Both the position numbers and the translations under genes were made by a program. From Aminobacter aminovorans (lineage in GTDB: Bacteria > Pseudomonadota > Alphaproteobacteria > Rhizobiales > Rhizobiaceae), in the NCBI RefSeq assembly GCF_900445235.1, contig NZ_UFSM01000001.1:3797501-3861500 (forward strand): a stretch of 64,000 nt of DNA, read 5' to 3'. Positions 14,923 through 37,222 of the stretch are shown here, piece after piece (within the stretch, counting starts at the first letter, position 1; each line of letters starts with the position of its first letter). Below the pieces are notes generated by a model, which did not search any database, had not been told where the DNA came from, and saw only the letters and a list, made by a program, of their open reading frames with translations.

Positions 14923-14951
14923 CACATTGTCTCCCATTCCGAACATGAAAA

Positions 14952-15518: not shown

Positions 15519-15570
15519 GAATACGTGCTCTCGGACTGGACGTTGTTTGCGGAAGGCCCGGGGCCGCAGG

Positions 15571-15636
15571 GGAGTAAGGGAGTAAGGGAAGAAGATAACC
15601 CTATTCCCCTATTCCCCTATTCCCCTATTCCCCTAG
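15571..15636 (-). repeat. Octamer tandem array, G-quadruplex-capable on the mRNA strand
   Basis: On the plus strand CCC at 15599 is followed by four units of TATTCCCC to 15633, preceded at 15571-15590 by two GGGAGTAA-type octamers. On the transcribed minus strand this reads as four GGGG runs and one GGG run, each separated by AATA. The array begins at the ALDH16 stop codon (TAG at 15633-15635) and, because the unit is eight bases, places TAG in every frame. Confidence 0.8.
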
Positions 15637-18002: not shown

Positions 18003-18075
18003 GAGGGGCTCCGGACTTTGCGGCGCGAGGATCGGGCGGGGGGCGCGAAGGAACGCGGCATGGCCAGGTCGCCCC

Positions 18076-20145: not shown

Positions 20146-21123
20146 TCAGCGTCCAGAGCTGCCCAGGATCGTGCGGCGGAACAGCTGCGCAAGACGGGCG
20201 CCATCGACCGCAAGCGCGACATCGACAGGTTGCCCCAGGCTTGCGCCACTCAGCTCGGATTCGCCGCGATGGGAACGACGGTCGACGATCGTCTGGCCGC
20301 GCGACCGCGATCCATCCGTGCAGACGCTGACCGGAAACCTGTGCGTCGTCAGGCCGGCGGGGTCGACAACGGCGCAGACCGTGCCGGCATCGCCCAGGGC
20401 TGCGATGGTACCGGCAGGGATGCGTTTCTGGTCGGAATCCTTGACCGCCATGTGCCGGAACAGCTTGGCGCACAACTGCGCCACCGGCCGGCTCGACCTT
20501 TCGAGTGCCGCGACATCATCCTCCGACACGGCCGCGCTGTAGAAGACGTCGAGCCCGTACATGACAGTCGGGATGCCGCTGTCGACGACGATCGCCGCCG
20601 CTTCCGGGTCGGCCCAGCTGTTGAATTCGGCGACCGGCGTTGCATTGCCTATGCTGGCGCTGCCGCCCATGAAGACGATCCGCTCGAGCCGGGCCGCCAC
20701 CTCAGGATACATGCGCACCAGGAGCGCCACATTGGTGAGCGGTGCCAGCGCGATCAGTGTCGGCGGTGTCGGGCTGGCCAGTATCTGTTGGCGCATGAGC
20801 TCGACGGCATGGATGTCGCTGCCGCCCTCCTCCGGGACGTCGAGCTCAAGCCCGGCGAGACCGTTATGGCCGTGGACATGGGCGGCGTCGCGCGGGGCGG
20901 CGATCAGCGGACGCGAGGCACCGCGGGCGACGGGGACGTGTCCTGCGCCGGCAATGGAAAGGACGGTACGGGTGTTGCGGTAGACGTTGTCGAGCGAGGC
21001 GTTGCCGGCAACGCAGGTCACTGCCCGCAGGTTGATATCAGGGTGGAGTGCCGCAAATGACAGCGCCAGCGCGTCATCGACGCCGGTATCGACATCGATC
21101 AGAACTTCGACGAGATGTGCCAT
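20146..21123 (-). CDS. Nucleoside hydrolase (IunH-type)
   Basis: A 325-residue inosine-uridine-preferring-type nucleoside hydrolase that splits N-ribosides into base and ribose. The calcium-binding signature DVDTGVDDALAL occupies residues 10-21. Further landmarks are RNTRTVLSIAGAGHVPVARG and VHGHNGLAG near residue 85, then ILASPTPPTLIALAPLTN. ATG at 21123 overlaps the sulfatase stop by one base (TGATG), making it the third gene of an FGE-sulfatase-hydrolase operon. The usual C-terminal His motif is not obvious, and the last 25 residues are low-complexity. The pairing with a sulfatase is unusual and hints at a sulfated nucleoside substrate (inference). Confidence 0.87.
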   Translation of the reverse strand: MAHLVEVLIDVDTGVDDALALSFAALHPDINLRAVTCVAGNASLDNVYRNTRTVLSIAGAGHVPVARGASRPLIAAPRDAAHVHGHNGLAGLELDVPEEGGSDIHAVELMRQQILASPTPPTLIALAPLTNVALLVRMYPEVAARLERIVFMGGSASIGNATPVAEFNSWADPEAAAIVVDSGIPTVMYGLDVFYSAAVSEDDVAALERSSRPVAQLCAKLFRHMAVKDSDQKRIPAGTIAALGDAGTVCAVVDPAGLTTHRFPVSVCTDGSRSRGQTIVDRRSHRGESELSGASLGQPVDVALAVDGARLAQLFRRTILGSSGR

Positions 21124-23342
21124 CACTCAGTGCTTTCCATTGCTTCAGCTACGTCCTCGATCAGCGGCTGGTCGAGGAAGTCTATGGTCAAGGTCTCAAA
21201 CGACCGCTTGGGGTAAGCGAAGTCGGCGGGATAGGCGCTGGAGACCCTGTCCGCCGCATCTGTGCCGACATCGATCCCCCAGAACGACAGATGTGCGGCG
21301 GTCACCGGAATACGTGCCGACCCTACCCTCCGGCGGCCGTGCAGCAAGACGATTTCGGCAGAATGGCCGTTTCGGTTGTGGAGAGCAAATCCGGCCTCGC
21401 ATGTTCCCGAGGGCAGCACGGCATCGGCGACGCAGACGACACGGTGGCCGAGTTGCACATGTTCGAAGCTCAGGCGCCCGTCCATGACATAAAGCACGTA
21501 GCCGCCTTGCGCGTCGCCACTCGAGACCAGCACGCCATCTTCGCCGGCGGCGCGATCGCGAAACGATGCAGTGACGACCATGGATCGTTCCGAACCCGCG
21601 ATCATGCTGCTGATCGGCACATGGCTCTGGCCCGGGCGGAAGACCAACCTGTCGCGTGACATCAACCCAATGGGCGGCCGCGCGCGCAGCAATTGCACCA
21701 GCGTACGGTCATCTAGCGGCAGCACGTTGTTGGCCTCAGCTTCCTGCCACCAGCGGCCGATCATTTCCTTGAGCAGGTCCGGCTCCTGCCCGGCACAATC
21801 CTGCGATTCCGAAAAATCGCCCTCGGTGTCGTAGAGCCGCCAATTGTCGTCCTCATAGGCATCGCCCTGGCGATGCTCGGTGACCGCCCGCCAACCTTCA
21901 TGCCAAATCGCGCGATGACCGAGGTTCTCCCAATATTGCGTGGCCCGCGGCGCCGGTGCATCGGCAGCATCAAAGGTCGATGCGATGCTGCGGCCGTCAC
22001 AGGGCAACGGATGGTCGAGACCCGCCAGCGACATGATTGTCGGCGCGAGGTCGATGACATGGGAGAACTGCGTCCTGACTTCGCCTGTCGAGGCGATGCC
22101 GCCGGGCCACGACACCACCATCGGCGAGCGCACGCCGCCAAGATCGACATGCTGCTTGTAGCGGCGGAAGGGCGTGTTGCCCGCCATGGCCCAGCCTTGC
22201 GGATAGTGTGCGCCGCCGTGACGGGTGCCTATATGGTCGAGGCGCTTGAGCTGTTCGTCGACGCTCTGCGGCAGGCCGCTATAAGGCGCGTTGGTGTCGA
22301 CTGCGCCATCCTTGCCGCCTTCGCGGCTGGCGCCGTTGTCGGAGAGCACGATGATCAGCGTGTTGTCGAGTTCGTCAAGTCTTGCCAGCTCATCGACCAG
22401 GCGGCCGAGATGCAGGTCGGTGTGCTCGAGGAAACCGGCATAGGCCGCCTGAAGATGCGTGTAGAGCAGTTTCTGCTCGTCGGAGAGCGTGTTCCAGGCC
22501 GAAACCTCTTCGTTGCGCGGCGCGAGTTCGGTCTCTTCAGGTGCGATGCCAAGCGCCTTCTGGCGCAGCAAGCGGTCCTCCCGCGTCACGTCCCAGCCCT
22601 TGGCGAAGACATCGACATAGGGTTCGATGAAGGAGCGCGGCGCCTGGAACGGTGCATGGGTTGCGCCGAAGGCCAGCTGCAGGAAAAACGGCTCCTCGTC
22701 GCGGAAGACGGTGTGGTCGCGGACATAAGAAATCGCCCGGTCGACCAGATCCTCGGTGAGGTGGTAATCCTGGGGAAATTCGCGGTCGACCTGGTGGTTG
22801 TCCTCGCACAGCTCGGGCGTCATCTGATCGGTGCATCCGGGAAGGAAGCCATAGAACCGGTCGAAGCCCCGGCCGAGCGGCCAGTTGTGATAGGGTCCAG
22901 CCGGCGAAATCTCATGCGACGGCGTCAGGTGCCACTTGCCGACCAGATAGCTGCCATAACCCTGCTCGCGCAGCATGGCCGGCAGCAGCGCCACGTCGCG
23001 GTCGATGCAGCCGCGCGAATTCGGGAAGCCGGTGTCGGTGTCGGACAGAAAACGCATGCCGACGGCATGGTGGTTGCGTCCGGTCAGCAGACAGGTGCGC
23101 GTCGGCGAGCAGAGCGGCGTGACGTGGAAATTGGTGTAGCGCAGCCCGCGCGCAGCCAGCCGGTCGATTGTCGGGGTCGCAATTTCCGAACCGAAGCAGC
23201 CAAAGTCAGCCCAGCCGGTGTCGTCCAGGACGACAACGACGATATTGGGTTTCTGTTGCTTGTGGTTGCGGCTCGTCGGCCACCAGGGCGTCGACTCCGC
23301 GACGGTGCGGCCGACATGGCCCGGAAACTTGTCATGTTTCAT
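21123..23342 (-). CDS. Cys-type arylsulfatase (type I, formylglycine-dependent), copy 1
   Basis: A 739-residue sulfatase hydrolysing sulfate esters. The formylglycine motif is CSPTR starting at Cys78. Calcium ligands come from VVVVLDDTGWADFG (Asp40-Asp41) and VLSDNGAS near residue 335; LVGKWHL supplies the conserved Lys and His. Residues after about 560 form a beta-rich C-terminal domain shared with the two other sulfatases here. No signal peptide is visible, so it is probably cytoplasmic. A GAGGAA ribosome-binding site is seven bases upstream. It follows an FGE gene by 15 bases and overlaps the nucleoside hydrolase. It is the most divergent of the three paralogues. Confidence 0.92.
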   Translation of the reverse strand: MKHDKFPGHVGRTVAESTPWWPTSRNHKQQKPNIVVVVLDDTGWADFGCFGSEIATPTIDRLAARGLRYTNFHVTPLCSPTRTCLLTGRNHHAVGMRFLSDTDTGFPNSRGCIDRDVALLPAMLREQGYGSYLVGKWHLTPSHEISPAGPYHNWPLGRGFDRFYGFLPGCTDQMTPELCEDNHQVDREFPQDYHLTEDLVDRAISYVRDHTVFRDEEPFFLQLAFGATHAPFQAPRSFIEPYVDVFAKGWDVTREDRLLRQKALGIAPEETELAPRNEEVSAWNTLSDEQKLLYTHLQAAYAGFLEHTDLHLGRLVDELARLDELDNTLIIVLSDNGASREGGKDGAVDTNAPYSGLPQSVDEQLKRLDHIGTRHGGAHYPQGWAMAGNTPFRRYKQHVDLGGVRSPMVVSWPGGIASTGEVRTQFSHVIDLAPTIMSLAGLDHPLPCDGRSIASTFDAADAPAPRATQYWENLGHRAIWHEGWRAVTEHRQGDAYEDDNWRLYDTEGDFSESQDCAGQEPDLLKEMIGRWWQEAEANNVLPLDDRTLVQLLRARPPIGLMSRDRLVFRPGQSHVPISSMIAGSERSMVVTASFRDRAAGEDGVLVSSGDAQGGYVLYVMDGRLSFEHVQLGHRVVCVADAVLPSGTCEAGFALHNRNGHSAEIVLLHGRRRVGSARIPVTAAHLSFWGIDVGTDAADRVSSAYPADFAYPKRSFETLTIDFLDQPLIEDVAEAMESTE

Positions 23343-23357
23343 TGCAGTTCCTCGAAA

Positions 23358-24281
23358 TCAGAAAGATCCGGCTGATGGCGCCGGCAGGTCGGCCGTGCAT
23401 CGAAAGCCAAGGTGGCTCGAGGCTGCGTCGACGGAGTTGGAGGTGCGCGCCGAGACGCGATAACGATTGCAGTGGCTGCGGTGGCAGAGATAGGAGCCGC
23501 CGCGCATGGCCTTCAGTCGAGGCTGGCTCTGCGACCAGCTGTCCGACGTCCATTCCCAGACATTGCCCACCATGTTGAACAGGCCGTAGCCATTTGGCTC
23601 GAAGGCATCGGCAGGCGCTGTCGAGAGGAAGCCGTCCGCGGCCGTATTCTCCCGGGGAAAGCGCCCCTGCCAGATGTTGCAGCGGTGCCTGCCCTGCTCC
23701 AGCAGCTCGTTGCCCCAGGGATAGATCTTGTCTTCAAGCCCGCCTCTGGCAGCGATCTCCCATTCGCTCTCAGTCGGCAGCCGCTTGCCGCTCCAGAGTG
23801 CGTAGGCCACGGCGTCGTTCCAGGAAATGTGCACGACCGGATGGTCGTCGCGGTCGCGCCAATCGGTACCGGCGCCGTCGGGCTTCGACCAGTTTGCCCC
23901 GCGCACCGGCAACCACCATTCCCGCGATCCGGTCTGCAGCGAAAGCACGTCCTTTTCGGCACGGGGATGAAGCTGGGCGTAAAAGACGAAGGACCAGCCG
24001 ATCCGTTCCGCCTCAGTGGCATAACCGGTCGCCTCAACGAAGCGGGCGAAAGCGCTGTTGGTCACCGTCGTCCTGTCGATCAGAAAGCCCGGGCTCGCGA
24101 CCATCCGCCGGGGACCCTCGCGATCCTCGGGATAGGCTTCGGAGCCGTCATGGCCGATGCGCCAGATGCCGGCGGGGACAGCGGCCATGCCGGAGATGTC
24201 TGCGCGACGAGGCGCTGGCGTGGCGGCATATGAAGGCGCCGGTTGCAGCTCGCTTTCCCGGACGGGTGAACAACACGACAT
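23358..24281 (-). CDS. Formylglycine-generating enzyme (SUMF1-type), copy 1
   Basis: A 307-residue FGE-sulfatase-domain protein that oxidises the sulfatase active-site Cys to formylglycine. The catalytic Cys pair lies in SYLCHRSHCNRYR (C266 and C271), followed by SSHLGFRC, matching authentic FGEs. GNVWEWTSD and RLPTESEWEIAARGG mark the C-type-lectin-like fold. ATG at 24281 has AGGAAA eight bases upstream and gives an N-terminus MSCCSPVR that parallels the other FGE in this window. It is the first gene of the operon with sulfatase copy 1, and divergent from a LysR regulator. Confidence 0.92.
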   Translation of the reverse strand: MSCCSPVRESELQPAPSYAATPAPRRADISGMAAVPAGIWRIGHDGSEAYPEDREGPRRMVASPGFLIDRTTVTNSAFARFVEATGYATEAERIGWSFVFYAQLHPRAEKDVLSLQTGSREWWLPVRGANWSKPDGAGTDWRDRDDHPVVHISWNDAVAYALWSGKRLPTESEWEIAARGGLEDKIYPWGNELLEQGRHRCNIWQGRFPRENTAADGFLSTAPADAFEPNGYGLFNMVGNVWEWTSDSWSQSQPRLKAMRGGSYLCHRSHCNRYRVSARTSNSVDAASSHLGFRCTADLPAPSAGSF

Positions 24282-24394
24282 CGAGGCATTTCCTGGTGAT
24301 GCCCGGATTTTCAACTCCCGGCGACAACAGGATTATTTGACAAAGCCCTGTCCGGAGCCAATACATTTAGGCTTGAAGGCAATTCCAATAGGTT

Positions 24395-25357
24395 ATGAGT
24401 CAGGCGCCCGCGATGTCGTTCGAAGTCCCCAATCTGACGCTGCTCAAGCACTTCGTCACGGTCGCCGAGGACAAGGGAATATCAAAGGCCGCAAAGCGGC
24501 TGCGCATTTCCCAGCCGGCGCTCTCCAAGAACATCAAGCGGCTGGAGGAGATGCTCGGCACGCGCCTGTTCGAGCGTCATTCCGGCGGCGCGGACCTGAC
24601 GCCGACCGGTCAGGCCTTCTTCAACCGGGCCCAGATCATCGGGCTCGAATACGAGCATGCGGTGCAGGAAATACGCAACCTTCTGTCCGAGCAGGATGCC
24701 ACCATCAGGGTGGCGGCGGGCCCGATCTGGTCGTCGACGATCCTGCCGCCGGCCGCCTCACGCTTTCACCGGCGTTTTCCCAGGCATCGGCTTTCGGTGC
24801 AGACGGGACCCGTCGACCAGCTGATCGAGGATCTGCGGCTTGGCCGGGTCGACATCTTCGCCGGCGCGGTGATTGCAAAGAGCAGGCTGCCTGGCTTCAC
24901 GTCGCGCCGCGTCGCCAAGGCGCAGATCGGCATCATGTGCGCCGAGCATCATCCTCTCGCCAAGGTAGAGGGACCGGTCGACCCGATGGAGCTGGTCAAA
25001 TACCCGTTCGTCTCGTTCAACCTGAACAGGGACGTGCTGAAGATGCTGTCCGACTGGCTGAAGGACCGGGGGGCTCCGCCTGCCCGCTACCTGCTCGAAA
25101 CCAGCTCGATCTTCACCTGCGCCGAGCTGGCGCGCTCGGGCGACTATCTGTTCTTCGAGTCGACGATGGTGGCCAGCAGCCCGATCGGACACGGATTGAA
25201 GGTGCTCAAGACCGACAAGGAGATCTTCCAGTACGATCTGGGCTTCGTGTTCCGGGAGGGAATGGACCGTCTGCCCGCCCATAGCGGACTGATGAAGGCG
25301 ATGGTCGAGGTGTTCGAAAACAGGGGCTTGCGCACCCCGCAGAGCGCCGCCGAATAG
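24395..25357 (+). CDS. LysR-family transcriptional regulator
   Basis: A 320-residue LysR-type regulator. The N-terminal winged helix reads LLKHFVTVAEDKGISKAAKR, then LRISQPALSKNIKRLEEMLG and LFERHSGGADLTPTGQAFF (residues 11-75). A periplasmic-binding-protein-like effector domain follows from about residue 95. It is divergent from the FGE-sulfatase-nucleoside hydrolase operon with a 113-base intergenic region, so it probably controls that operon. Sulfatase genes are often governed by LysR regulators responding to sulfur status, but the effector here is unknown. Confidence 0.9.
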   Translation: MSQAPAMSFEVPNLTLLKHFVTVAEDKGISKAAKRLRISQPALSKNIKRLEEMLGTRLFERHSGGADLTPTGQAFFNRAQIIGLEYEHAVQEIRNLLSEQDATIRVAAGPIWSSTILPPAASRFHRRFPRHRLSVQTGPVDQLIEDLRLGRVDIFAGAVIAKSRLPGFTSRRVAKAQIGIMCAEHHPLAKVEGPVDPMELVKYPFVSFNLNRDVLKMLSDWLKDRGAPPARYLLETSSIFTCAELARSGDYLFFESTMVASSPIGHGLKVLKTDKEIFQYDLGFVFREGMDRLPAHSGLMKAMVEVFENRGLRTPQSAAE

Positions 25358-25370
25358 GCGGCGCCCTGGT

Positions 25371-25416
25371 GCAATTCCAGTAAGACCGTACAGCGGCTTC
25401 CCCAAGGGAATTGCGC
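25371..25416. repeat. Dispersed palindromic element, copy B
   Basis: A 46-base imperfect palindrome with end arms GCAATTCC and GGAATTGC, lying between convergent LysR and sulfatase genes. It aligns without gaps over 46 bases to the reverse complement of the element at 63849-63896; both 10-base ends and the central CAGCGG are identical. It probably belongs to a family of rhizobial intergenic repeats and may form a hairpin that ends both transcripts. Confidence 0.7.
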
Positions 25417-25470
25417 AAAAACAAGAAGATAGAGCGTTCAGCGAATAAATCGGAAACACTCTGTCAGGCG

Positions 25471-27702
25471 TCAGTCGATTTCGCCGCTGGGCGGCACGAT
25501 CTCGCGGTCATCGCCAAGTTCGATCACCAGCCGGTGCAATTTGCCGGTAAAGCGGAATTCACCGGAGATGCCGTCGCAGACCGGCGGCAAACCGCTTCGG
25601 CCGATGAACATCGGTGCCAGCGATATGCGCAACAGGGTCTGGTGCTCGCGCTCGCCGGCTTGCAGCTCGCCGTTGACGAAAAGGGCACCGATGCCCTTGA
25701 GCAGACCGGTCTTGCGGTACTCGAAGCCGAGGGAAATCGAGCCGAATGCGGTCAGCGGCGCGGATGCCAGACGCATGATCTCGCCGACGTGGTTGTAGCT
25801 GTAGTTCAGCCTGCCGTCCTTGAGGGAGAGCACGTAGCCGCTGCAATTGTTGCCATAGCTGACAAGCGTGCCTTCCGAACGTTGATCGATCGTCACCTCG
25901 GCGGTGATCCGATGCGAGGTGTCCTGGGTCAGCGGCGCCGCTGACGACGGGATGGATTCGAGCTGCGGATAAAAGACGTAGCGGCTGCGCGAACGGATGG
26001 AGTCGGGCTTCGCCTTGGCGCGGAAACGCACCTCGCGGTCGTCGAGAGGCATGACGTCGTACCGGCCGGCTTCCGCCCACCAGCGTTCCGTCATCTCGCG
26101 GAGCTTTGCCGGGTTCTCCCTGGCCAGATCGCGGGTCTCGTTGAAATCCTCGTCGAGCTTGTAGAGCTCCCAGTCGTCGAGCTCGAAGTCGTCGCCGCGC
26201 CGGTGCTTGGTGACGGCCTTCCAGCCCTTGTGCCAGATGCCGCGGTGGCCGAACATCTCGAAATATTGCGCGTCCTTGCGCGTATCTGCGTCAGGCGCGT
26301 CGAATGTGTAGGCAAAACTGGTGCCATGCACCGGCATCTGGGCGACGCCCCGGTAGACGTCGGGGGCGGTGACGCCACAGACCTCGAGCACCGTCGGCGT
26401 GATGTCGACGACGTGATGGAACTGATGACGGATGCTGCCCTTGTCGGCGATGCGCCTCGGCCACGACACGATCATCGGGTCGCGCACGCCGCCGCCATGG
26501 GTGAAGGACTTGAACAGGCGCAGCGGCGTGTTGCTGGCCTGGGCCCAGCCCCAGGAGTAGTTGCTGTTGCTCCTGGGGCCGCCGATCTCGTCGATTTCGG
26601 CCAGGTTGCGTTCGAATGATTCCGGGATCTGGTTGAAGCGCCTGAGCACGTTGGTCGTGCCCTCCGGGCCGCAGTCGATCGATGCGCCATTGTCGGAGAT
26701 GACGACGATCAGCGTGTCGTCCAGCTTGCCTGTCGTCTCGAGGAGATCGAGCAGCCGGCCCAGCTGCTCGTCGGTGTATTCGAGGAAGCCGGCATAGGCC
26801 TGCTGCAACCTGACGGCGACCTTCTTCCGGTCGGCAGAGAGCAGGTCCCAGTTCTCGACGCCGGGGGCGTCGGGCGGCAGTTCGGTCGTTTCAGGCACCA
26901 GGCCCATCGCCTTCTGGCGTTCGAGCCGCCGCTGCCTGATGACGTCCCAGCCGCAGTCCCAGACGCCGTCATAGCGGTCCATATAGGCCCGGGGCACCTG
27001 ATGGGGAAAATGGCCTGATGAAAAGGCCAGGTTCAGGAAAAACGGCGTCTCCGGTGCCAGCGAGACATGGGCACCGAGCATCGCCATCGCCTTGTCCACC
27101 AGATCGGCGGTCAGGTGGTAGCCGTCTTCGGGGGACTTCGGCTGGGCGACCGGGTGATTGTCCTCGACGAGCTCGGGATGATACTGATCGGTGCTGCCAT
27201 TCATGAAACCGTAGAAGCGATGGAAGCCACGGCCGAGCGGCCACTGGTCGAACGGTCCGACGGCGGTGATCTCGTCGGTCTGCGCGACATGCCACTTGCC
27301 GACGGCGAAGTTGGCGTAGCCGGCACTGCCGAGCATTTCCGCGACCGTCGCTGCCCGATGCGAGATCGAGCCGCGGCCATTGCGGTAGCCGAAATCGAAA
27401 TTGGCCAGGCAGCGCATGCCGACGGCGTGATGGTTGCGCCCGGTCAGCAGGCTGGCCCGCGTCGGCGAGCACATGGTGGTGGTGTGGAAGTTGCTGTAGC
27501 GCAACCCCGCCTGGGCAAGCCGGTCGAAATTGGGCGTGCGGATCTCCGAACCGAAGCAGCCCAGGTCGGCGAAACCGACATCGTCGAGAATGACATAGAT
27601 GACGTTGGGGCTGCCCGGCGCCGGCCTGGGCCTGGTTTCAAACCAGCTGTCTGACTCGTGATAGGTGCGGCCGATACGGCCTGAAACAGGGTCGTTGGAC
27701 AT
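25471..27702 (-). CDS. Cys-type arylsulfatase, copy 2
   Basis: A 743-residue formylglycine-dependent sulfatase with CSPTR at Cys78, metal ligands in IYVILDDVGFADLG (Asp40-Asp41) and VVISDNGAS, and the Lys/His pair in AVGKWHVA. The C-terminal 180 residues form the same beta-rich domain as the other copies, including SYGNNCSGYVLSLKDGRLNY. There is no signal peptide. It is last in an operon transcribed FGE, binding protein, ATPase, permease, sulfatase. It is closer to copy 3 than to copy 1, both in sequence and in gene order, suggesting duplication of a whole transporter-sulfatase set. It likely acts on an imported sulfate ester. Confidence 0.92.
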   Translation of the reverse strand: MSNDPVSGRIGRTYHESDSWFETRPRPAPGSPNVIYVILDDVGFADLGCFGSEIRTPNFDRLAQAGLRYSNFHTTTMCSPTRASLLTGRNHHAVGMRCLANFDFGYRNGRGSISHRAATVAEMLGSAGYANFAVGKWHVAQTDEITAVGPFDQWPLGRGFHRFYGFMNGSTDQYHPELVEDNHPVAQPKSPEDGYHLTADLVDKAMAMLGAHVSLAPETPFFLNLAFSSGHFPHQVPRAYMDRYDGVWDCGWDVIRQRRLERQKAMGLVPETTELPPDAPGVENWDLLSADRKKVAVRLQQAYAGFLEYTDEQLGRLLDLLETTGKLDDTLIVVISDNGASIDCGPEGTTNVLRRFNQIPESFERNLAEIDEIGGPRSNSNYSWGWAQASNTPLRLFKSFTHGGGVRDPMIVSWPRRIADKGSIRHQFHHVVDITPTVLEVCGVTAPDVYRGVAQMPVHGTSFAYTFDAPDADTRKDAQYFEMFGHRGIWHKGWKAVTKHRRGDDFELDDWELYKLDEDFNETRDLARENPAKLREMTERWWAEAGRYDVMPLDDREVRFRAKAKPDSIRSRSRYVFYPQLESIPSSAAPLTQDTSHRITAEVTIDQRSEGTLVSYGNNCSGYVLSLKDGRLNYSYNHVGEIMRLASAPLTAFGSISLGFEYRKTGLLKGIGALFVNGELQAGEREHQTLLRISLAPMFIGRSGLPPVCDGISGEFRFTGKLHRLVIELGDDREIVPPSGEID

Positions 27703-27810
27703 TGGGGCGCCTCGGATTTCGGATAAACCGGAGATGCCGCATCTCGCTCACCGACCATGCCGCATCGATCGGAACCCGGCCGGCCCTGGGGCAGGCCGGG
27801 TCTGTGGAGA

Positions 27811-28635: not shown

Positions 28636-28638
28636 GGC

Positions 28639-29466
28639 TTATCCAGCTCCCAGCATGTCGCGCAGCCTGGCGACGTGACGGCCCAGTTCCGGGGCATCCT
28701 TCAGGGCAAGGTCGCGCTCTTCAGGAAGGTCGATTTCGAGAATCCCGCCGATCCTCGAGGGCCTTCGGCTCATCACGACGACGCGCTGCGACAGGAACAC
28801 GGCCTCGTGCAGCGAGTGGGTGACGAAAACGATCGTCATCCCGCTCTGTTTCCAGATCCGCAACAGCTCGACATTCAGCGTGTCGCGCACAAGCTCATCG
28901 AGCGCGCCGAAAGGCTCGTCCATGAGCAGGACCTTCGGTCGGGTGACCAGGGCACGGGCGATCGACACACGCTGGCGCATGCCACCCGACAGTTCCGACG
29001 GCAGTGAGTCCTCGAAACCTTCGAGCTCGACCAGCTTGAGCGCCTCATGCGGGTCCATGAAATTGCCAGCCTTGGGATTGGCCCCGCCGACCTCGAAAGG
29101 GAGGCGGACATTGTCGATCACCTTGGCCCATGGCATCAGCACCGATTGCTGGAAGACCATGGAGAATGTGCGCGCGGCACGTGCTGCCGAGGGCGTTCCG
29201 CCGAAAATGGCGATCTTGCCCTCGGTCGGCGCGATAATGTCGGCGATGGTGCGCAGCAAGGTGGATTTGCCGCAGCCGGAATGCCCGATCAGGGAGACGA
29301 ACTCGCCTTCGCGCACCGTCAGCGAGACGTTGTCGATGGCGCGCACCGCCCGCGAACTGCCGCCAAACGTCACCGCGACGTTGTCGATCTCGATGGCGTT
29401 GCGCGCCGAGGAGACACCGATGTCGCCGGAGTGGGCGGCCCCGGAAGGAGCCATTGTCGCCATCAT
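28639..29466 (-). CDS. ABC ATPase, SsuB/TauB-like
   Basis: A 275-residue ATPase energising the adjacent permease. Walker A is GHSGCGKST, signature LSGGMRQRVSIA, Walker B VLLMDEPFGALD, and the switch His lies in FVTHSLHEA. The open frame extends 39 codons upstream into the binding-protein gene; ATG at 29466, two bases after that gene's stop, is the likely start. All catalytic motifs are intact. It is a paralogue of the ATPase at 33340-34164 in the mirror-image operon. Confidence 0.92.
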   Translation of the reverse strand: MMATMAPSGAAHSGDIGVSSARNAIEIDNVAVTFGGSSRAVRAIDNVSLTVREGEFVSLIGHSGCGKSTLLRTIADIIAPTEGKIAIFGGTPSAARAARTFSMVFQQSVLMPWAKVIDNVRLPFEVGGANPKAGNFMDPHEALKLVELEGFEDSLPSELSGGMRQRVSIARALVTRPKVLLMDEPFGALDELVRDTLNVELLRIWKQSGMTIVFVTHSLHEAVFLSQRVVVMSRRPSRIGGILEIDLPEERDLALKDAPELGRHVARLRDMLGAG

Positions 29467-29468
29467 GT

Positions 29469-30473
29469 TCACCGCTTCGTCCTCTGTGCTGCTGCGAGGA
29501 TGCTGCCGTCGAAGACGTCGTCCGCAGACAGCTCGGATTTGATCTCGCCGATTTTGGCGTAGGTCTGCAGCGTCGCGTCCCAACGGTCCTTGCTGATATT
29601 GGCAAAACCGTGCTCGCGCGTTTCGTCGGTGTAGACGAAGTCGGCCACGATCACCTTGAGCGAGGCGAGTTCCTTGTCCTTTTCAATCGCGCTCGACATC
29701 GAGGCAACCATGTCGATCGCTTCTTCGGGATGGTCGGCGGCATAGGCCCAGCCCTTGTCGCAGGCCTCGAGGAACTTCACCAGCATGTCGCTGTCGGAGC
29801 CGATCAGGTCGGTGCGGGCGATGTAGTAGTTGGACTGGAACTGCAGCCCGTTGTCCCAGATGCTCTGTGTGTTGTAGCCGCTGGGATGCTGCAGGATCGG
29901 CTGGTTCTGGGCGACATTGGTCGGCCAGGAGGCAACGACGTCGACCTGATCCTGCAGAAGGCCGGGAATCTGGGCCTGGATGAAGGTGATGTCCTCGAAC
30001 TTCAGGCCATTATGGTCGAGCACGGCCTTGACCTGGGCGGTGGCGCCCTGACCGGCACCGATGCGCTTGCCCTTCCAGTCGGCAATCGACTTGATGTTGG
30101 CTTCGCCAAGCGAATAGAAGGTCAGCGGCGCCTTCTGAAACGCCGCGCCGAAGGTCTTGATCGGCAGCCCCTGGTTCGCGGCATACATGATCTCGGGCGC
30201 GTAGGCGGTGGCGATCTGCGCTACCCCGGAGAGCGTTTCCTGCACCGTATTGGAATTCGGTCCGCCGGGAAGGATCTCGACCTCAAGGCCCTTTTCAGCG
30301 AAAAACCCCTTCTTCAAGGCGACGATTTCGCCAGCGGCGGCTCCGTTGTAGAGCCAGGCGAGTTGCAGTTTGACCTGCTTCTGCTGCGCATAAGCGGGAA
30401 CCACGCCTCCAAGCCCCAGCGAGGCGAGCGACATGATGCTGGCTGCTGCCAGAAATGAACGTCGGCTGACCAT
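29469..30473 (-). CDS. ABC solute-binding protein, SsuA/TauA/NMT1-like
   Basis: A 334-residue periplasmic protein with a Tat-like leader, MVSRRSFLAAASIMSLASLG, and probable cleavage after AYAQ. The mature part opens VKLQLAWLYNGAAAGEIVAL and then KKGFFAEKGLEVEILPGG, the family pattern. These proteins bind taurine, alkanesulfonates, sulfate esters, nitrate or pyrimidine precursors. In an operon with a sulfatase and FGE, a sulfate ester or sulfonate is the best guess. It lies 105 bases after the FGE stop, and a hairpin occupies the gap. Confidence 0.9.
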   Translation of the reverse strand: MVSRRSFLAAASIMSLASLGLGGVVPAYAQQKQVKLQLAWLYNGAAAGEIVALKKGFFAEKGLEVEILPGGPNSNTVQETLSGVAQIATAYAPEIMYAANQGLPIKTFGAAFQKAPLTFYSLGEANIKSIADWKGKRIGAGQGATAQVKAVLDHNGLKFEDITFIQAQIPGLLQDQVDVVASWPTNVAQNQPILQHPSGYNTQSIWDNGLQFQSNYYIARTDLIGSDSDMLVKFLEACDKGWAYAADHPEEAIDMVASMSSAIEKDKELASLKVIVADFVYTDETREHGFANISKDRWDATLQTYAKIGEIKSELSADDVFDGSILAAAQRTKR

Positions 30474-30544
30474 CTATATCCTCCAATCAGACAAGCCCAA
30501 CGACCTAATTGCGATGAGGATAGACCGCATGCAGCGGGTCCACA

Positions 30545-30585
30545 CCATAACATGCTTCTGCGAACTCATTCCATGTGGTTATGGA
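30545..30585 (-). promoter_or_regulatory. Inverted repeat between FGE and the binding-protein gene
   Basis: CCATAA followed by CATG at 30545-30554 faces CATGTGGTTATGG at 30573-30585, allowing a hairpin with one small bulge and an 18-base loop. It lies in the 105-base gap between the FGE stop and the downstream binding-protein start on the minus strand. It could be a processing hairpin, an attenuator, or an operator for an internal promoter. Confidence 0.4.
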
Positions 30586-31517: not shown

Positions 31518-31576
31518 GGCGCGTTCCTGTCGAAAAATGGATCGACCGAGTTTGACTCTTTCATGATCCTGCGTAA

Positions 31577-31594
31577 AGGTAGGACGTCCTACCT
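31577..31594. promoter_or_regulatory. 18-bp perfect palindrome, probable GntR operator
   Basis: AGGTAGGACGTCCTACCT is a perfect 18-bp palindrome located between divergent FGE (start 31517) and GntR (start 31611), 17 bases upstream of the GntR start. It contains GT and AC half-site cores as expected for GntR-family dimers, so it can control both operons at once. Confidence 0.7.
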
Positions 31595-31610
31595 CTTGGA
31601 GGAGAGAGCG

Positions 31611-32360
31611 ATGTCGGGAACTGCCGCCGAACGCGTCATGCAGTATATTCGCCAGCAGAAGCTGGTCGCCGGCGACCGTTTGCCGGCGGAAATCGACATT
31701 TCCCGGATGCTCGGCCTCAGCCGCAATTCGCTGCGCGAGGCCTATGCCGACCTGATGGCCAAGGGGCTGCTCAAGAACAAGCATGGCGTCGGCACCTTCA
31801 TCGCCAACCCGCCGATCCTCAACGCCTTGACCGGCTCCGCAGGCTTCTGGAACCTGATCGAAAATGCCGGAATGAAGGCATCGTTCCGCGAGATCCAGCG
31901 CGACCAGGTCATCGCGCCAAAAGAGATCGCCGTCATCCTGGGCCTGGCAGCCGAGAAGCCAACCCATCGTTTGCGCTGGCTGTTCCTCGCCAACAATCAG
32001 CCCTGCATTCTCGTCGACCACTTTCTCGCGCGCAGCGTACCGCCGGGCGCCTTCAACCAGAGCACGGAACACGACGCGCTCGCCGCTATCGCTCCGTTCA
32101 CCGTCATCGATGGCGCATCACTCTCGACCCGCACGTCGGCGATCAACGCCACGGCCGACGTCGCCGAGCTGCTCGAAGTCAGCGAGGGCGACGCGCTTCT
32201 CTGGAGTACGGCGCTCGTGCACTCGGGCAATGGCAGCGTGCCGCTGGCCTCGCGCTCCTGGATGGTGCCGCAACTTCTCGCCAGCCATCAGATGATGGCC
32301 CTCGCACCCGTTCATTTTCAGGGCAGCTCAGCCCTTTCGCCGGAGGACGAACCGAAATGA
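31611..32360 (+). CDS. GntR-family regulator (HutC/UTRA type)
   Basis: A 249-residue regulator. The N-terminal winged helix reads RVMQYIRQQKLVAGDRLPAE and then LGLSRNSLREAYADLMAKGL (residues 7-57). The C-terminal half is an UTRA-like effector domain with RLRWLFLANNQPCILVDHFL near residue 125. ATG at 31611 follows a GGAGGAGAG site; the frame is open 16 codons upstream, but that would place the operator within the coding region. Its stop overlaps the binding-protein start (ATGA), so the regulator is encoded at the head of the operon it likely autoregulates. Confidence 0.88.
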   Translation: MSGTAAERVMQYIRQQKLVAGDRLPAEIDISRMLGLSRNSLREAYADLMAKGLLKNKHGVGTFIANPPILNALTGSAGFWNLIENAGMKASFREIQRDQVIAPKEIAVILGLAAEKPTHRLRWLFLANNQPCILVDHFLARSVPPGAFNQSTEHDALAAIAPFTVIDGASLSTRTSAINATADVAELLEVSEGDALLWSTALVHSGNGSVPLASRSWMVPQLLASHQMMALAPVHFQGSSALSPEDEPK

Positions 32361-33328
32361 CCCGCTTCACCAAAATTGTCCTGAGTCTCGCATCGGGCCT
32401 CATGCTCTTCTCGGCGCAACTGGCCGGGGCACAGACCCTCGAGCCGGTACGCTTCGGCGTCGACGCCTATACGACCGGCTCCCAGATCTGGGTCGCCAAG
32501 GAAAAGGGCTTCTTCGAAAAGGAAGGCATCGACGCCCAGATCACCACCTTCGCCACCGGTGTCGAGGCCATCGATGCGCTGCTGATCGGCCGTGCCGACA
32601 TGGCGGTCGGGCTCGACTTCCCGATCGTCTCGCGCATCCAGGGCGGCAAGCTGACGGTGCTTGCCGGCATCTTCCATTCCAAGCCCGGCTTCCACAAGCT
32701 GGTGGTCAGCAACGACATCAAGGACGCCAAGGACCTTGTCGGCAAGAAGATCGGCATTGCCACCGGCACCGCCCAGCACCTGATCACCATGAAATATCTC
32801 GAGGAAAACGGTATAGCCGAGGACAAGGTCGAGATCGTCGGCTTCACCAGCCTGCTCGAGATCGTCGCTTCGCTCCGCTCCGGCCGCATCGACGCGGCCT
32901 TCGTCTGGGCCGACGGCACGCAGAAATCGACCGACGGCGGCAACCACTACGTGCTGACCGACGATGCGGCAGCCAAGCGCAACAGCAGCGCCTACATTGC
33001 CGCGCAGACCGAGTTCACCGAAAAGCATCCGGAACTGACAGTTTCAACGCTGCGCGCGCTGAACGCGGCCAGCCAGTTCATCGCAACCAACAAGGACGAA
33101 GCGGCAGCCCTCATCGCCAAGAACACCCGTGCGCCGCGCGACACGGTGCGCGACCTGCTCAACTACAATGAATTCGCCCTGGCGCTGACCGACTATGAGC
33201 GCGCCGGCTTCAAGGAAGTCGCTGACTTCCTGGCCAAGACGAAAGCACAGCCGGTCAGCTTCGAAACGGGCGTCAATCCGAAATTTCTTGGGCAAGCTGC
33301 CCCCGACCTGGTCAAGCTGGGCAACTGA
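32357..33328 (+). CDS. ABC solute-binding protein, TauA/SsuA-like (second set)
   Basis: A 323-residue periplasmic binding protein with a Sec signal peptide, basic MTRFTKIV then hydrophobic, with cleavage near LAGAQT. Family landmarks are SQIWVAKEKGFFEKEGIDAQ and the segment GVEAIDALLIGRADMAVG near residue 70. Translation is coupled to GntR. It is paralogous in role to the protein at 29469-30473 but clearly divergent, so the two transporters may import different organosulfur compounds. Confidence 0.9.
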   Translation: MTRFTKIVLSLASGLMLFSAQLAGAQTLEPVRFGVDAYTTGSQIWVAKEKGFFEKEGIDAQITTFATGVEAIDALLIGRADMAVGLDFPIVSRIQGGKLTVLAGIFHSKPGFHKLVVSNDIKDAKDLVGKKIGIATGTAQHLITMKYLEENGIAEDKVEIVGFTSLLEIVASLRSGRIDAAFVWADGTQKSTDGGNHYVLTDDAAAKRNSSAYIAAQTEFTEKHPELTVSTLRALNAASQFIATNKDEAAALIAKNTRAPRDTVRDLLNYNEFALALTDYERAGFKEVADFLAKTKAQPVSFETGVNPKFLGQAAPDLVKLGN

Positions 33329-33339
33329 GCGGACCTGCG

Positions 33340-34164
33340 ATGACAAACAATCAAACACGCGAGGCGGCATCTCCGGGCGCCATGCCTGCGGTCGTCTTCG
33401 ACAAGGTCGGCATGGCCTATCCCGGCCAGAAGGCGGGCAGCGAGCTTATCCTGGCCGACCTGTCCGTGACCGTCGCGCAAGGCGAATTCTTCGTCCTCGT
33501 CGGCCCCAGCGGCTCGGGCAAGTCGACATTGCTCAAGATCGTCGCCGGGACCGAGAAGCAGACCGAAGGCCGCGTGCTCGCCAATGGCGAGACGATCGCC
33601 GGCCCCGACCGGCGGCGCGGCATGGTGTTCCAATCGATCGAGGAGCCGCTGTTCCAGTGGCTCACCGTGGCCGAGAATATCGGCTTCGGCCCCAGCGTCG
33701 CGGGCAAGGCTCGCGCCGAATCCCGCGAAATGGCACAGCGCTATATCGACCTCGTCGGCCTTCGCGGCCACGAGCAGAAATTTCCGCATGAGCTTTCCGG
33801 CGGCATGAAGCAGCGCGTGCAGATCGCGCGTACGCTGGCCGCCGAACCTGAACTGATCCTGTTCGACGAACCGTTTGCGGCCCTCGACGCACTGACGCGC
33901 CGCGTCCTGCAGAAGGAGCTGACGCGGATCTGGCGCGAGACCGCCTGCACCATGGTCTATGTCACCCACGACATTCGCGAGGCCGTGCTGCTTGGCCAGC
34001 GCGTTGCAGTGATGAGCCGGGGGCCCCGCGCCAACATCACGCGCATCTACGACATCGACCTGCCCTATCCGCGCGACGACCTCGACAGCCGTTTCGCCGA
34101 TGCCGTGAAGGCGATCGAGGGCGACATCGAAAGGGAGGCGGCTTCGCAATGGGAGCAAAACTGA
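33340..34164 (+). CDS. ABC ATPase, SsuB/TauB-like (second set)
   Basis: A 274-residue ATPase with intact motifs: Walker A GPSGSGKST, signature LSGGMKQRVQIA, Walker B LILFDEPFAALD and switch His in YVTHDIREA. It starts 11 bases after the binding-protein stop and overlaps the permease gene by 16 bases. It drives import through the permease encoded next. Confidence 0.92.
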   Translation: MTNNQTREAASPGAMPAVVFDKVGMAYPGQKAGSELILADLSVTVAQGEFFVLVGPSGSGKSTLLKIVAGTEKQTEGRVLANGETIAGPDRRRGMVFQSIEEPLFQWLTVAENIGFGPSVAGKARAESREMAQRYIDLVGLRGHEQKFPHELSGGMKQRVQIARTLAAEPELILFDEPFAALDALTRRVLQKELTRIWRETACTMVYVTHDIREAVLLGQRVAVMSRGPRANITRIYDIDLPYPRDDLDSRFADAVKAIEGDIEREAASQWEQN

Positions 34165-34922
34165 TGCCATCCTACGCCTGGTCGGCGCTCAGCGTCGCTG
34201 TCGTCGTGATCTTCTGGCAAATGGCCTCGACCTGGCTGGTCGATCCCATGTTCCTGCCCGCACCGCTCGCCGTGCTCAACGGCGCCGGACAGATGCTGGC
34301 GGAGGGTACCCTCACTCAGTCCATTCTGGTGTCGATGATGCGTATTCTCTCGGGCTGGTTTCTCGGCAGCGCCATTGCCATTCCGATCGGGCTCGCCGTC
34401 GGCGTCTCGCCGGTGGCGCGTCACCTGGTCGACCCGTTCATCCACTTCTTCCGCTTCGTTCCGGCCATCGCGCTGGTGACCTTGTTCATCATCTGGTTCG
34501 GCGTAGGCGAGATGTCGAAGATCATCCTGATCGCCTATGCGACGGCCTTCATCGTGATGGTCAACACGGCCAGCGGCGTGTCCTCGATCTCGCAGGACAA
34601 GCTGAATGCCGCCCGCTGCCTCGGCGCCAACGAGCGGCAGGTGTTCTTCAAGGTGATGATCCCGGCCTCCCTGCCCTCGATCTATGTCGGCATGCGGCTG
34701 GCGCTCGCCTCGTCCTTCCTCGTCATCGCGGCCGCCGAAATGCTCGCCGCCGATGCCGGGCTCGGCTACATCATCTGGACCTCGCGCCTCTACTTCCAGG
34801 TCGACTGGATGTTCGCGGCAATCATCGCGCTCGGCCTTCTCGGCTTTGCCACCGATCGGCTGTGGCGGCTGCTCGGGCGGACGCTGCTCAAGCGCTATTT
34901 GCGCGGCGTCACCGGCTACTGA
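34149..34922 (+). CDS. ABC permease, SsuC/TauC-like (second set)
   Basis: A 257-residue membrane permease with about six helices. The coupling loop reads AARCLGANERQVFFKVMIPA near residue 155, and ASSFLVIAAAEMLAADAGLGY matches the SsuC family. It overlaps the ATPase gene by 16 bases. Sulfatase copy 3 follows after 65 bases, completing the same order (binding protein, ATPase, permease, sulfatase) as the mirror operon. Confidence 0.9.
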   Translation: MGAKLMPSYAWSALSVAVVVIFWQMASTWLVDPMFLPAPLAVLNGAGQMLAEGTLTQSILVSMMRILSGWFLGSAIAIPIGLAVGVSPVARHLVDPFIHFFRFVPAIALVTLFIIWFGVGEMSKIILIAYATAFIVMVNTASGVSSISQDKLNAARCLGANERQVFFKVMIPASLPSIYVGMRLALASSFLVIAAAEMLAADAGLGYIIWTSRLYFQVDWMFAAIIALGLLGFATDRLWRLLGRTLLKRYLRGVTGY

Positions 34923-34987
34923 TCCATCGGCCGGGCCGTCCCCTCCTGAAGCGGCCCGGCGACCATCTCACATGATCGGGGTAGAGC

Positions 34988-37222
34988 ATGACTTCCGAAT
35001 TTCGCGGACATATCGGCCGCACGCACCATGAATCCGAGCGCGACTATGCCGACATTCCGGTCGGCCCGGCCGGCAAGCCGAATGTCATCTATGTCGTGCT
35101 CGACGACGTCGGCTACTCCGACCTCGGTTGTTTCGGCTCGTCCATCGACACGCCGAACTTCGATTCACTCGCCGATAACGGACTGCGCTACAGCAATTTC
35201 CACACCACCACGCTGTGCTCGCCGACACGTGCCTGCCTGCTGACCGGGCGCAACCACCACTCGGTCGGCATGCGCTATCTGGCCAATGCCGACATGGGCT
35301 GGCCCTCGGGCCGCGGCGCGATCAGCCACCGCGCCGGCACGCTCGCCGAAATGCTCAAGCTGCAGGGTTATGCGACCTATGCGGTCGGCAAATGGCACCT
35401 TGCGCCGACCGAAAACGCCAATGCGGCCGGCCCCTTCGATCAGTGGCCGCTCGGCCGCGGCTTCGAGCGCTTCTATGGCTTCATGAATGGCAGCACCGAC
35501 CAGTTCCACCCGGAACTCTGCCAGGACAACCAGCAGGTTCCGCCGCCGGCGACACCCGAACAGGGCTACCATTTGTCCGACGACCTTTCGGACCGCGCGG
35601 TGCGCTACATCGCCGACAAGATGGCGATCTGGCCAGACAAGCCGTTCTTCCTCTATCTCTGCTACGGCGCCGGGCATTTCCCGCACCAGGCGCCGGAGTC
35701 CGCACTGGCCCGATATCGCGGCCGCTTCGGCCATGGCTGGGACGAAGAACGCGTGCAGAGGCTGGCCAAGCAGAAGGCGATGGGCCTCGTTCCGGAAAGC
35801 ACCGAACTGCCGCCGCCAAATCCCGGAGTGCGTGCCTGGGCCGAACTCTCGCCGGAAGAACGCGAGGTGTCTGAGCATATGCAGGAGGCCTATGCCGCGC
35901 TTTTGGGCCATACCGACGCCGCCTTCGGCAAGCTGCTGGACTTCCTCGACCGCACCGGCATTCGCGACAACACGATCATCGTGCTGATATCCGACAATGG
36001 CGCGTCCACCGATTGCGATCCTGACGGCACGACCAATGTGCTGCGCTGGTTCAACCGCCTGCCTGAGGACTATGCCGTGTCGCGCGAGCGCATGGCGGAA
36101 ATCGGCACGGCACGCAGCTCGGGCAACTATCCCTGGGGCTGGGCGCAGGCGTCGAACACGCCGCTCAAGCTCTACAAGAGCTTCACCCATGGCGGCGGCG
36201 TGCGCGACCCGATGATCTTTTCGTGGCCTTCAGGCATATCAGACAAGGGCGAGGTGCGCAGCCAATTCACCCATGTCACCGACATTACGCCGACAATCAT
36301 GCAGCTCTGCGGCGTCACCCCGCCCGAAAGCATCAACGGCGTGGCACAGATGCCGATCCATGGCGAGAGCTTCGCCTATTCCTTCGACGCGCCGGATGCG
36401 GCAACCGCCAAGCAGTCGCAATATTTCGAGATGTACGGACATCGCAGCATCTGGCATCGCGGCTGGAAAGCCGTGACGCAGCACAAGGCCGGCAGCGATT
36501 TCGACAGCGAGCGCTGGGAGCTCTACCACCTCGACGAGGATTTCTCCGAGCTGCGCGACCTCTCCCAGGAAAGGCCGGAAAAGCTCGCCGAGATGAAGGA
36601 ACGCTGGTGGGCGGAAGCCGGCCGCTACGGCGTCATGCCTCTCGACGACAGCGACGTGCTGTTCAAGCCGCCCTACAGGCCCGGCGCACCACGCTGGCGC
36701 AACGAGTGCAGCTACTTCCCGCCGATCTCCTCGATACCTGCGGAAGCCGCGCCGATGACGCAGGACGTCTCGCACCGCATAACCGTCGAGATCGAGCGCA
36801 GCGATGCGAGCCAGGGCGGCGCGCTCGTCTGCTTCGGCAGCTGCCATGGTGGCTACGCGCTCGACGTCATCGAGAACCGGCTGGTCTACACCTACAACTA
36901 TGCCGGCTTCGAAGTCAGCCGCCTCATCTCGGACCGGGACCTGCCGCTCGGCAAGACGACTGTCGCCTTCGAATTCGATAAGACCGGCACGCTCAAGGGA
37001 CGCGGCCGCCTGACGGTCGACGGCCAGCCGGCCGGCGAACATGTGTTCGAACGCACCCTGCTCAGGCTGTCGCTGTCGCCGCTGATGTTCGGGCGCAGCA
37101 ACGCCGAACCGGTCGATCCGGACAGGCAGACGAACCCGGATTTTTCGGGCCGTATCCTGCGCATCGACTACGCCATCGCAGATGATCGCGAGGTCGGCCC
37201 GCCCAGCCTCGACGTGGACTGA
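34988..37222 (+). CDS. Cys-type arylsulfatase, copy 3
   Basis: A 744-residue formylglycine-dependent sulfatase with CSPTR at Cys77, metal ligands in IYVVLDDVGYSDLG (Asp39-Asp40) and VLISDNGAS, and Lys/His in AVGKWHLA. The C-terminal beta-rich domain includes VCFGSCHGGYALDVIENRLVY. No signal peptide is evident. It is last in the GntR-led operon, which has no FGE of its own; formylglycine formation must come from the FGEs of the neighbouring operons. It shares the terminal REVGPPS/REIVPPS region with copy 2, supporting common descent. Confidence 0.92.
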   Translation: MTSEFRGHIGRTHHESERDYADIPVGPAGKPNVIYVVLDDVGYSDLGCFGSSIDTPNFDSLADNGLRYSNFHTTTLCSPTRACLLTGRNHHSVGMRYLANADMGWPSGRGAISHRAGTLAEMLKLQGYATYAVGKWHLAPTENANAAGPFDQWPLGRGFERFYGFMNGSTDQFHPELCQDNQQVPPPATPEQGYHLSDDLSDRAVRYIADKMAIWPDKPFFLYLCYGAGHFPHQAPESALARYRGRFGHGWDEERVQRLAKQKAMGLVPESTELPPPNPGVRAWAELSPEEREVSEHMQEAYAALLGHTDAAFGKLLDFLDRTGIRDNTIIVLISDNGASTDCDPDGTTNVLRWFNRLPEDYAVSRERMAEIGTARSSGNYPWGWAQASNTPLKLYKSFTHGGGVRDPMIFSWPSGISDKGEVRSQFTHVTDITPTIMQLCGVTPPESINGVAQMPIHGESFAYSFDAPDAATAKQSQYFEMYGHRSIWHRGWKAVTQHKAGSDFDSERWELYHLDEDFSELRDLSQERPEKLAEMKERWWAEAGRYGVMPLDDSDVLFKPPYRPGAPRWRNECSYFPPISSIPAEAAPMTQDVSHRITVEIERSDASQGGALVCFGSCHGGYALDVIENRLVYTYNYAGFEVSRLISDRDLPLGKTTVAFEFDKTGTLKGRGRLTVDGQPAGEHVFERTLLRLSLSPLMFGRSNAEPVDPDRQTNPDFSGRILRIDYAIADDREVGPPSLDVD

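Follow-up and report, generated by a model that had tools for sequence, protein, structure and literature searches.

The question raised by this locus is whether two transporter-sulfatase sets, facing each other like mirror images, represent one duplicated module fired from a single operator or two gene sets with switches of their own. The locus occupies positions 20,146 to 37,222 of the window (the whole stretch of 64,000 nucleotides that was analysed, from contig NZ_UFSM01000001.1 of Aminobacter aminovorans) and encodes three sulfatases (S1, S2, S3), two formylglycine-generating enzymes (FGE1, FGE2), two ABC importers consisting of binding protein, ATPase and permease (B2-A2-P2 and B3-A3-P3), a GntR-UTRA and a LysR-type regulator, and a nucleoside hydrolase (NH); the coordinates are collected in Table 1. 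On the grounds of gene content and DNA motifs we consider it likely that this is an organosulfur-scavenging island of two interleaved circuits, circuit A run by GntR and circuit B by LysR. The two side-by-side gene sets are probably switched separately, and most likely both of them import sulfated organic molecules and remove the sulfate intracellularly. The original prediction of a self-contained, duplicated and diverged module was confirmed in part: the genes and the palindrome hold, as does the order of binding protein, ATPase, permease and then sulfatase in both sets (from Pfam domain matches), while the architecture differs, and the functional interpretation was likewise partly supported. 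Neither lysR nor NH, the first gene of the stretch, which overlaps the stop codon of S1, had been mentioned in it.

Separate switching is indicated by a second motif, which was recognized when the DNA ahead of lysR/S1 was compared with that ahead of B2. This motif, ATTCCANNNGGTTATG, follows the T-N11-A rule for LysR-type boxes and forms a partial dyad ahead of putative target genes. It matches exactly only at the two sites of Table 1 in the 5.9-Mb genome, in the same orientation, about 100 bp ahead of FGE1 and 95 bp ahead of B2, and a control pattern gave no match at one mismatch. The other three genomes with the island (contigs L043, L045 and L046) have two copies each, at an identical distance from B2, and one exact copy stands between lysR and S1 in both L010 and L041, where a relative of the LysR protein (best model TF_pcaQ, below cut-off) adjoins S1. 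Both importer operons had been supposed to diverge from one palindrome; the B2 operon has its own LysR-type box, the same as that before FGE1-S1, and B2-A2-P2-S2 is probably not fired from the palindrome. Two sites with one mismatch, the first next to trpB and an AraC-type gene, the other next to a gene for a trimethylamine-methyltransferase-like protein (names assigned by eye from translations), were considered as further LysR targets and rejected.

The palindrome, AGGTAGGACGTCCTACCT, is perfect over its 18 bp and lies between FGE2 and gntR, as described before, but the second importer operon does not flank it. The gntR start at 31611 was taken over that at 31563, since the latter places the operator inside the gene. 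The argument that such a palindrome is improbable by chance alone was rejected: the window contains three perfect palindromes of at least 18 nt, and 30 Markov sequences contain 0.63 on average. It is taken as real because a form of it is kept ahead of gntR in all nine other contigs that carry the GntR module. L003, L004, L005 and L007, as well as L046 of genome G009, have it intact, and in L006, L008 and L009 a single position differs; L010 carries it in duplicate, and the L020 form is longer, with altered half-sites. Apart from the operator and an upstream TTGAC box, the latter present in 10 of 11 aligned sequences (TTGCT in L020), the intergenic sequences of different genera have diverged. 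A conserved palindrome ahead of the regulator gene is the pattern of an autoregulated GntR operator, and we regard this one as a candidate for that role. No second site was detected in the own genome with up to three mismatches, and among 385 genomes of the class the two-N form occurs in the own genome alone.

Both FGEs are authentic, as had been claimed: they match PF03781 (E 4e-73 and 2e-75) and have the two active-site cysteines of aerobic FGEs, in the segments GGSYLCHRSHC (FGE1) and GGSYLCHASYC (FGE2). At E 1e-3 the genome has no other PF03781 match, and the two form one clade (100/99) in a tree of 24 fetched FGE rows (a partial sampling), two of which are the same gene (L105) and from which matches with fewer than 200 aligned residues, including that of L007, were dropped. 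The GntR operon was earlier thought to use an FGE encoded in trans, but an FGE is divergent from gntR in six of the nine other module contigs; it is FGE2-like in L003-L007 (a partial match in L007) and falls outside the FGE1/FGE2 clade in L008. Furthermore, the stretches examined of L005-L008 lack the second importer though an FGE adjoins gntR, and for these reasons FGE2 is regarded as the GntR circuit's own enzyme. With LysR over FGE1-S1-NH and the B2 operon, and GntR over FGE2 and its own operon, there would be one FGE per circuit. The island is self-contained in so far as both FGEs of the genome are located in it. Against this, four of the seven PF00884 matches of the genome lie elsewhere, two without a CxPxR motif and two with it (CSPAR, 556 aa; CAPGR, 508 aa, BetC-like by eye), and the island FGEs may serve the latter two as well.

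In circuit A, GntR on the 18-bp palindrome would repress both gntR-B3-A3-P3-S3 and FGE2, and an imported ligand would lift the repression. B3-A3-P3 would bring in an anionic sulfate ester. In freshly synthesized S3, FGE2 would turn the CSPTR cysteine into formylglycine, and this sulfatase would free the sulfate in the cytosol. In circuit B, LysR would drive FGE1-S1-NH and B2-A2-P2-S2 via the two box copies; this different importer would take up other sulfate esters, S1 and S2 would desulfate them, and NH might cleave an N-riboside product of S1.

Several observations weigh against this reading. When up to two mismatches were allowed, two LysR-box matches also turned up in 5 out of 100 shuffled versions of the window, and the box ahead of B2 has one mismatch in L041 and three in L010 (by eye); the two-box case rests on both copies being exact and alike in placement. 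When the palindrome pattern was run in reversed form as a control, each strand had one match at three mismatches. Transcription may read through from FGE2 into B2, and S2, which follows P2 after a gap of 108 bp, could have its own promoter. Finally, the stretches examined of L009, L010 and L020 contain a GntR module but no FGE, and these three genomes each carry a cysteine-pair FGE elsewhere; an FGE next to the module is therefore dispensable.

As regards the enzymes, the three sulfatases of about 740 residues were found as predicted, each with CSPTR and hence with the CxPxR motif of Cys-type formylglycine sulfatases. C77, S78, T80 and R81 (S3 numbering) are invariant across 19 aligned sulfatases, and the same is true, in the alignment to 1hdh, of all ten positions corresponding to the catalytic residues of AtsA: D39, D40, C77, R81, K135, H137, H230, D336, N337 and K397 of S3. 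The list of AtsA residues draws in part on PMC5066984. The P. aeruginosa arylsulfatase AtsA (1hdh) is the closest solved structure by sequence for S2 and S3; for S1 the first PDB match is the arylsulfatase 7all, with AtsA next. The best PDB matches of a structure model of S3 (mean pLDDT 80, built on an alignment depth of 19) are likewise AtsA, and Foldseek with the whole model returned only sulfatases among the 50 matches listed. A C-terminal beta domain of S3, residues ~570-735, lies outside the AtsA-matching part; it has a weak Laminin_G_3 match (E 2e-4, below cut-off), in a sulfatase that is probably cytosolic.

The last gene of FGE1-S1-NH brings in the alternative that survives best. NH and S1 overlap by 4 nt at the S1 stop codon (1 nt if NH starts at its second codon), G006 shows a 4-nt overlap as well, and among the 10 Aminobacter genomes all five with a complete or partial S1 of at least 81% identity have NH after it. 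A link of the island to nucleoside breakdown is possible on this basis. Circuit B as a whole might use sulfated nucleosides or other sulfated N-ribosides as a source of carbon, nitrogen and sulfur, with B2-A2-P2 importing them, S1 and S2 desulfating them, NH splitting the base from the ribose, and the adjoining DeoC, aldehyde dehydrogenase, NDT-family and PfkB proteins finishing the sugar; two sulfatases, their own FGE and a His-less, mostly actinobacterial NH would then stand under one LysR. We hold this to be unlikely, even though B2 weakly resembles pyrimidine-binding proteins and a nucleoside-type (deo) cluster lies alongside, comprising beyond NH a DeoR-type regulator, deoC, an aldehyde dehydrogenase, an NDT-family protein and a PfkB kinase. 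Similar groupings were also met elsewhere: on an Arthrobacter plasmid (L057, 4079-9922) a CSPAR sulfatase is divergent from an MFS transporter, a GntR-UTRA regulator, a 49% identical NH relative and a ribokinase, and in Alloyangia a dissimilar NH (33%) is located 5 nt after S3. However, L010 and L041 carry S1 without NH, a second Arthrobacter relative of NH has no annotated sulfatase across 17 kb, NH lacks the His usually found at the leaving-group position, and it may belong to the deo neighbourhood instead. Natural sulfated nucleosides are not known from sources other than spider venoms. In the family of Alloyangia (394 genomes) S3 relatives are present in three, and the two outside Alloyangia (48-49%) have no NH match in their 1.5-kb flanks.

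The NH protein reaches none of the equivalog cut-offs (RihA 231 against 433 bits, RihC 242 against 382, ribosylpyrimidine nucleosidase 161 against 459). GDAG replaces the LHDP His motif of the two solved nucleoside hydrolases compared and, by pattern count, occurs in 117 of the best 120 of 3439 database matches. The named relatives outside Aminobacter among these 120 are Actinomycetota (54-61% identity), and among the matches listed from other genomes of the order the best identity is 43%. Because there is no His at the leaving-group position, the substrate may be unusual, and the coupling of a sulfatase with NH hints at a possibly overlooked natural sulfate ester. A literature search by title and start of abstract gave nothing on point for a link between nucleoside hydrolases and sulfatases.

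Two importer sets are present, as had been stated, but the label SsuABC-like fits only one of the binding proteins, and that one below the cut-off: on the SsuA model B3 scores 120 bits and B2, which is nearer the ThiY type, 51 bits against a cut-off of 163.5. B3 matches SsuA and TauA (PDB 2x26, E 2e-13), B2 is nearer pyrimidine-type binding proteins (PDB 4nmy, which binds thiamin, E 2e-18; 3ix1, E 2e-14). B2 and B3 are 23% identical, P2 and P3 24% and A2 and A3 43%, and relatives in plasmid records reach 35% identity to B2 and 54% to P2. The importers are of different stock, thus the mirror image appears to have been assembled from parts and not made by duplication of a cassette.

That a single transporter-sulfatase cassette was duplicated, with both copies fired from the shared palindrome and an FGE in trans serving the GntR copy, has consequently become quite improbable. 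The gene order is indeed identical on both arms, FGE2 stands directly upstream of B2, and S2 and S3, which are paralogous, are the nearest pair of sulfatases (58% identical, S1 being 45-46% identical to either). Nevertheless, B2 and P2 have closer kin in the plasmid records than in B3 and P3, a separate LysR box precedes B2, FGE and gntR occur without the B2 set in L005-L008, and the GntR module of Mesorhizobium (L020) carries an enzyme that groups with S2. In the tree of 35 fetched sulfatases (a partial sampling), from which a date of the duplication had been hoped for, the S2 and S3 clades make up one 14-row group (100/100), where S2 groups with L010_S2 (100/99) and, at lower support, the L020 enzyme (92/89), and S1 forms a separate clade with L010_S1 and L041_S1 (100/100). 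A long-branch warning affects the placement of S1 beside L049/L050 and leaves its own clade unaffected. All three clades predate the genus copies, and the S2/S3 split precedes the divergence of the Aminobacter copies. Cassette duplication was rejected on the importer identities, the closer outside relatives of B2 and P2 and this tree. The grouping of S2 with the L020 enzyme points to a possible origin of this sulfatase in a GntR-type module, from which it would have been joined to the LysR set.

Concerning the place of desulfation, S1-S3 and both FGEs have no N-terminal hydrophobic stretch, and B2 and B3 have one. The best 15-residue hydropathy means are 0.67-1.41 for the sulfatases and FGEs and 1.77 and 1.92 for the binding proteins; this leader call is plain hydropathy and crude, the surely cytosolic DeoC scoring 1.67 with the start used. 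Together with the co-conservation of importer and sulfatase, seen on 9 of the 18 contigs with S3, it supports the earlier proposal of import followed by desulfation in the cytosol. According to PMC3920027 Cys-type sulfatases are typically cytosolic.

It is highly unlikely that the sulfatase-fold enzymes are phosphonate or phosphate ester hydrolases and that the island feeds phosphorus instead of sulfur, since the weak matches to a PehA-type hydrolase model (75-86 bits against a cut-off of 900) and the best score of the GntR-UTRA protein on the phosphonate regulator PhnF (below cut-off) are opposed by the nearest solved relatives of S1-S3, all arylsulfatases, by the fold model of S3, closest to AtsA, and by the SsuA/TauA-like B3.

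The occurrence of the genes in relatives speaks for two sets that have moved independently. Among named relatives, Aminobacter ciceronei and A. aganoensis are the closest. The whole island is present in four of ten Aminobacter genomes (the own genome, G002, G006 and G009), with the A. ciceronei / A. aganoensis records and G002 / G006 counted once, and G007 has a remnant (L048, 7944-9847) made up of the last 313 residues of S1 and then NH before the contig end. S3 was found on 18 contigs, nine of which (L003-L010 and L020) have gntR-B3-A3-P3-sulfatase; their hosts are Aminobacter (two), Alloyangia, Aquamicrobium, Pseudooceanicola, Rhizobium, Devosia, Mesorhizobium and a Hyphomicrobiales metagenome-assembled genome. 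The contigs L011-L019 have S3 without the GntR-importer set, and in L011-L013 an FGE adjoins the sulfatase. The GntR-importer-sulfatase set is sporadic: S3 relatives at E 1e-150 or better occur in 13 of 297 genomes of the order, the own genome included. At E 1e-60 B2 had no match in the 296 other genomes of the order. The island genes in the stretch of L041, from another genus, are B2-A2-P2, LysR and S1 only, and those in the stretches of L005-L009 and L020 are the GntR set only, so the two sets appear to travel separately. The Mesorhizobium locus L020 (6403-12214) combines a GntR module, a sulfatase that groups with S2 and a longer operator palindrome.

In aerobic soil the bulk of the sulfur is organic, with sulfate esters as one of the principal forms. 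By analogy, the island is understood to work like the sulfate-ester ats cluster of Pseudomonas, of which it would be a rearranged variant containing FGE genes. As far as PMC3596284 describes it, the cluster of Pseudomonas sp. UW4, atsACBR-sftR-atsK-sftP, likewise combines a LysR regulator with an arylsulfatase gene and a dedicated ABC importer of the sulfonate type (ATPase, permease and binding protein); in the window, too, sulfatases adjoin their own ABC importers, and half of the related contigs (9 of 18) keep the GntR-importer-sulfatase set. The island departs from the ats cluster in having FGE genes and a nucleoside hydrolase, two importers that differ in type, three sulfatases, all of them long, and a GntR circuit with a candidate operator to itself. 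Neither atsK (alkylsulfatase) nor sftP (TonB receptor) was found among the annotated island genes, the rest of the genome not having been searched. AtsA (PAS, PDB 1hdh), which belongs to SulfAtlas S1_4 (PMC5066984), shares with S3 33% identity, a common fold over the catalytic part and the catalytic positions, but S3 has about 200 more C-terminal residues, modelled as an all-beta domain. Expression of atsA in P. aeruginosa rises more than 95-fold under sulfur starvation (PMC12581299). Choline sulfatase BetC of the Sinorhizobium meliloti bet operon, as presented in PMC5870055, is also a rhizobial CxPxR sulfatase acting on a small sulfate ester; S1-S3 differ from it in subfamily, with 59-79 bits on the choline-sulfatase model against a cut-off of 433. 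A search by title and start of abstract gave nothing on point for Aminobacter sulfatases. The island would be a compact case of separate substrate-tuned circuits with their own maturation enzymes and with parts of different origin, and its two operator motifs make both regulators directly assayable.

Table 1. Genes and DNA motifs of the sulfatase island, in window coordinates
Feature	Position	Strand	Basis or remark
Nucleoside hydrolase NH (IU-NH family, GDAG subfamily)	20146..21126	-	PF01156 E 9.7e-82
Sulfatase 1 (S1), 739 aa, CSPTR	21123..23342	-	PF00884 E 8e-64
FGE1, formylglycine-generating enzyme, 307 aa	23358..24281	-	PF03781; CHRSHC; PDB 6s07 E 9e-100
LysR-type box ATTCCAATAGGTTATG, lysR/FGE1 gap	24382..24397	+	exact match; ~100 bp upstream of FGE1 ATG
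LysR-type regulator, divergent from FGE1	24395..25357	+	NCBIfam LysR models; start may be 24413
Sulfatase 2 (S2), 743 aa, CSPTR	25471..27702	-	PF00884 E 3e-61
ABC permease P2	27811..28635	-	PF00528 E 8e-27
ABC ATPase A2	28639..29466	-	PF00005 E 1e-33 on longer ORF 28639-29583; start inferred by eye
Binding protein B2, ThiY/NMT1-like, hydrophobic leader	29469..30473	-	PF09084 E 7e-46
LysR-type box ATTCCATGTGGTTATG	30568..30583	+	exact match; 95 bp upstream of B2 ATG; overlaps FGE2 stop
FGE2, 312 aa	30579..31517	-	PF03781; CHASYC pair
Candidate operator palindrome AGGTAGGACGTCCTACCT	31577..31594	.	ends 16 bp ahead of gntR ATG
GntR-UTRA regulator	31611..32360	+	PF00392 and PF07702 on longer ORF
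Binding protein B3, SsuA/TauA-like, hydrophobic leader	32357..33328	+	PF09084; TIGR01728 E 9e-35, below cut-off
ABC ATPase A3	33340..34164	+	PF00005 E 6e-32
ABC permease P3	34149..34922	+	PF00528 E 1e-28
Sulfatase 3 (S3), 744 aa, CSPTR	34988..37222	+	PF00884 E 5e-63

Some minor observations concern the surroundings of the island. The stretch with deoC and a two-domain aldehyde dehydrogenase gene (window 15570-19022) is 99.2% identical to a second copy at 391741-395176 of the same contig; two full deoC matches are present in three of the four Aminobacter genomes with the whole island, the island-side copy of G006 being cut by the contig end. Genes for a PfkB kinase and a nucleoside 2-deoxyribosyltransferase-family protein stand beside deoC (window 13990-15518), also in G009, and a TauE/SafE exporter gene followed by one for an Alph_Pro_TM protein is located at 12063-13771 of the window. 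On a Paracoccus plasmid (L059, 4476-10235) two permeases, an ATPase, a binding protein and an arylsulfatase are encoded one after the other, beside a mannonate dehydratase and a glycoside hydrolase.

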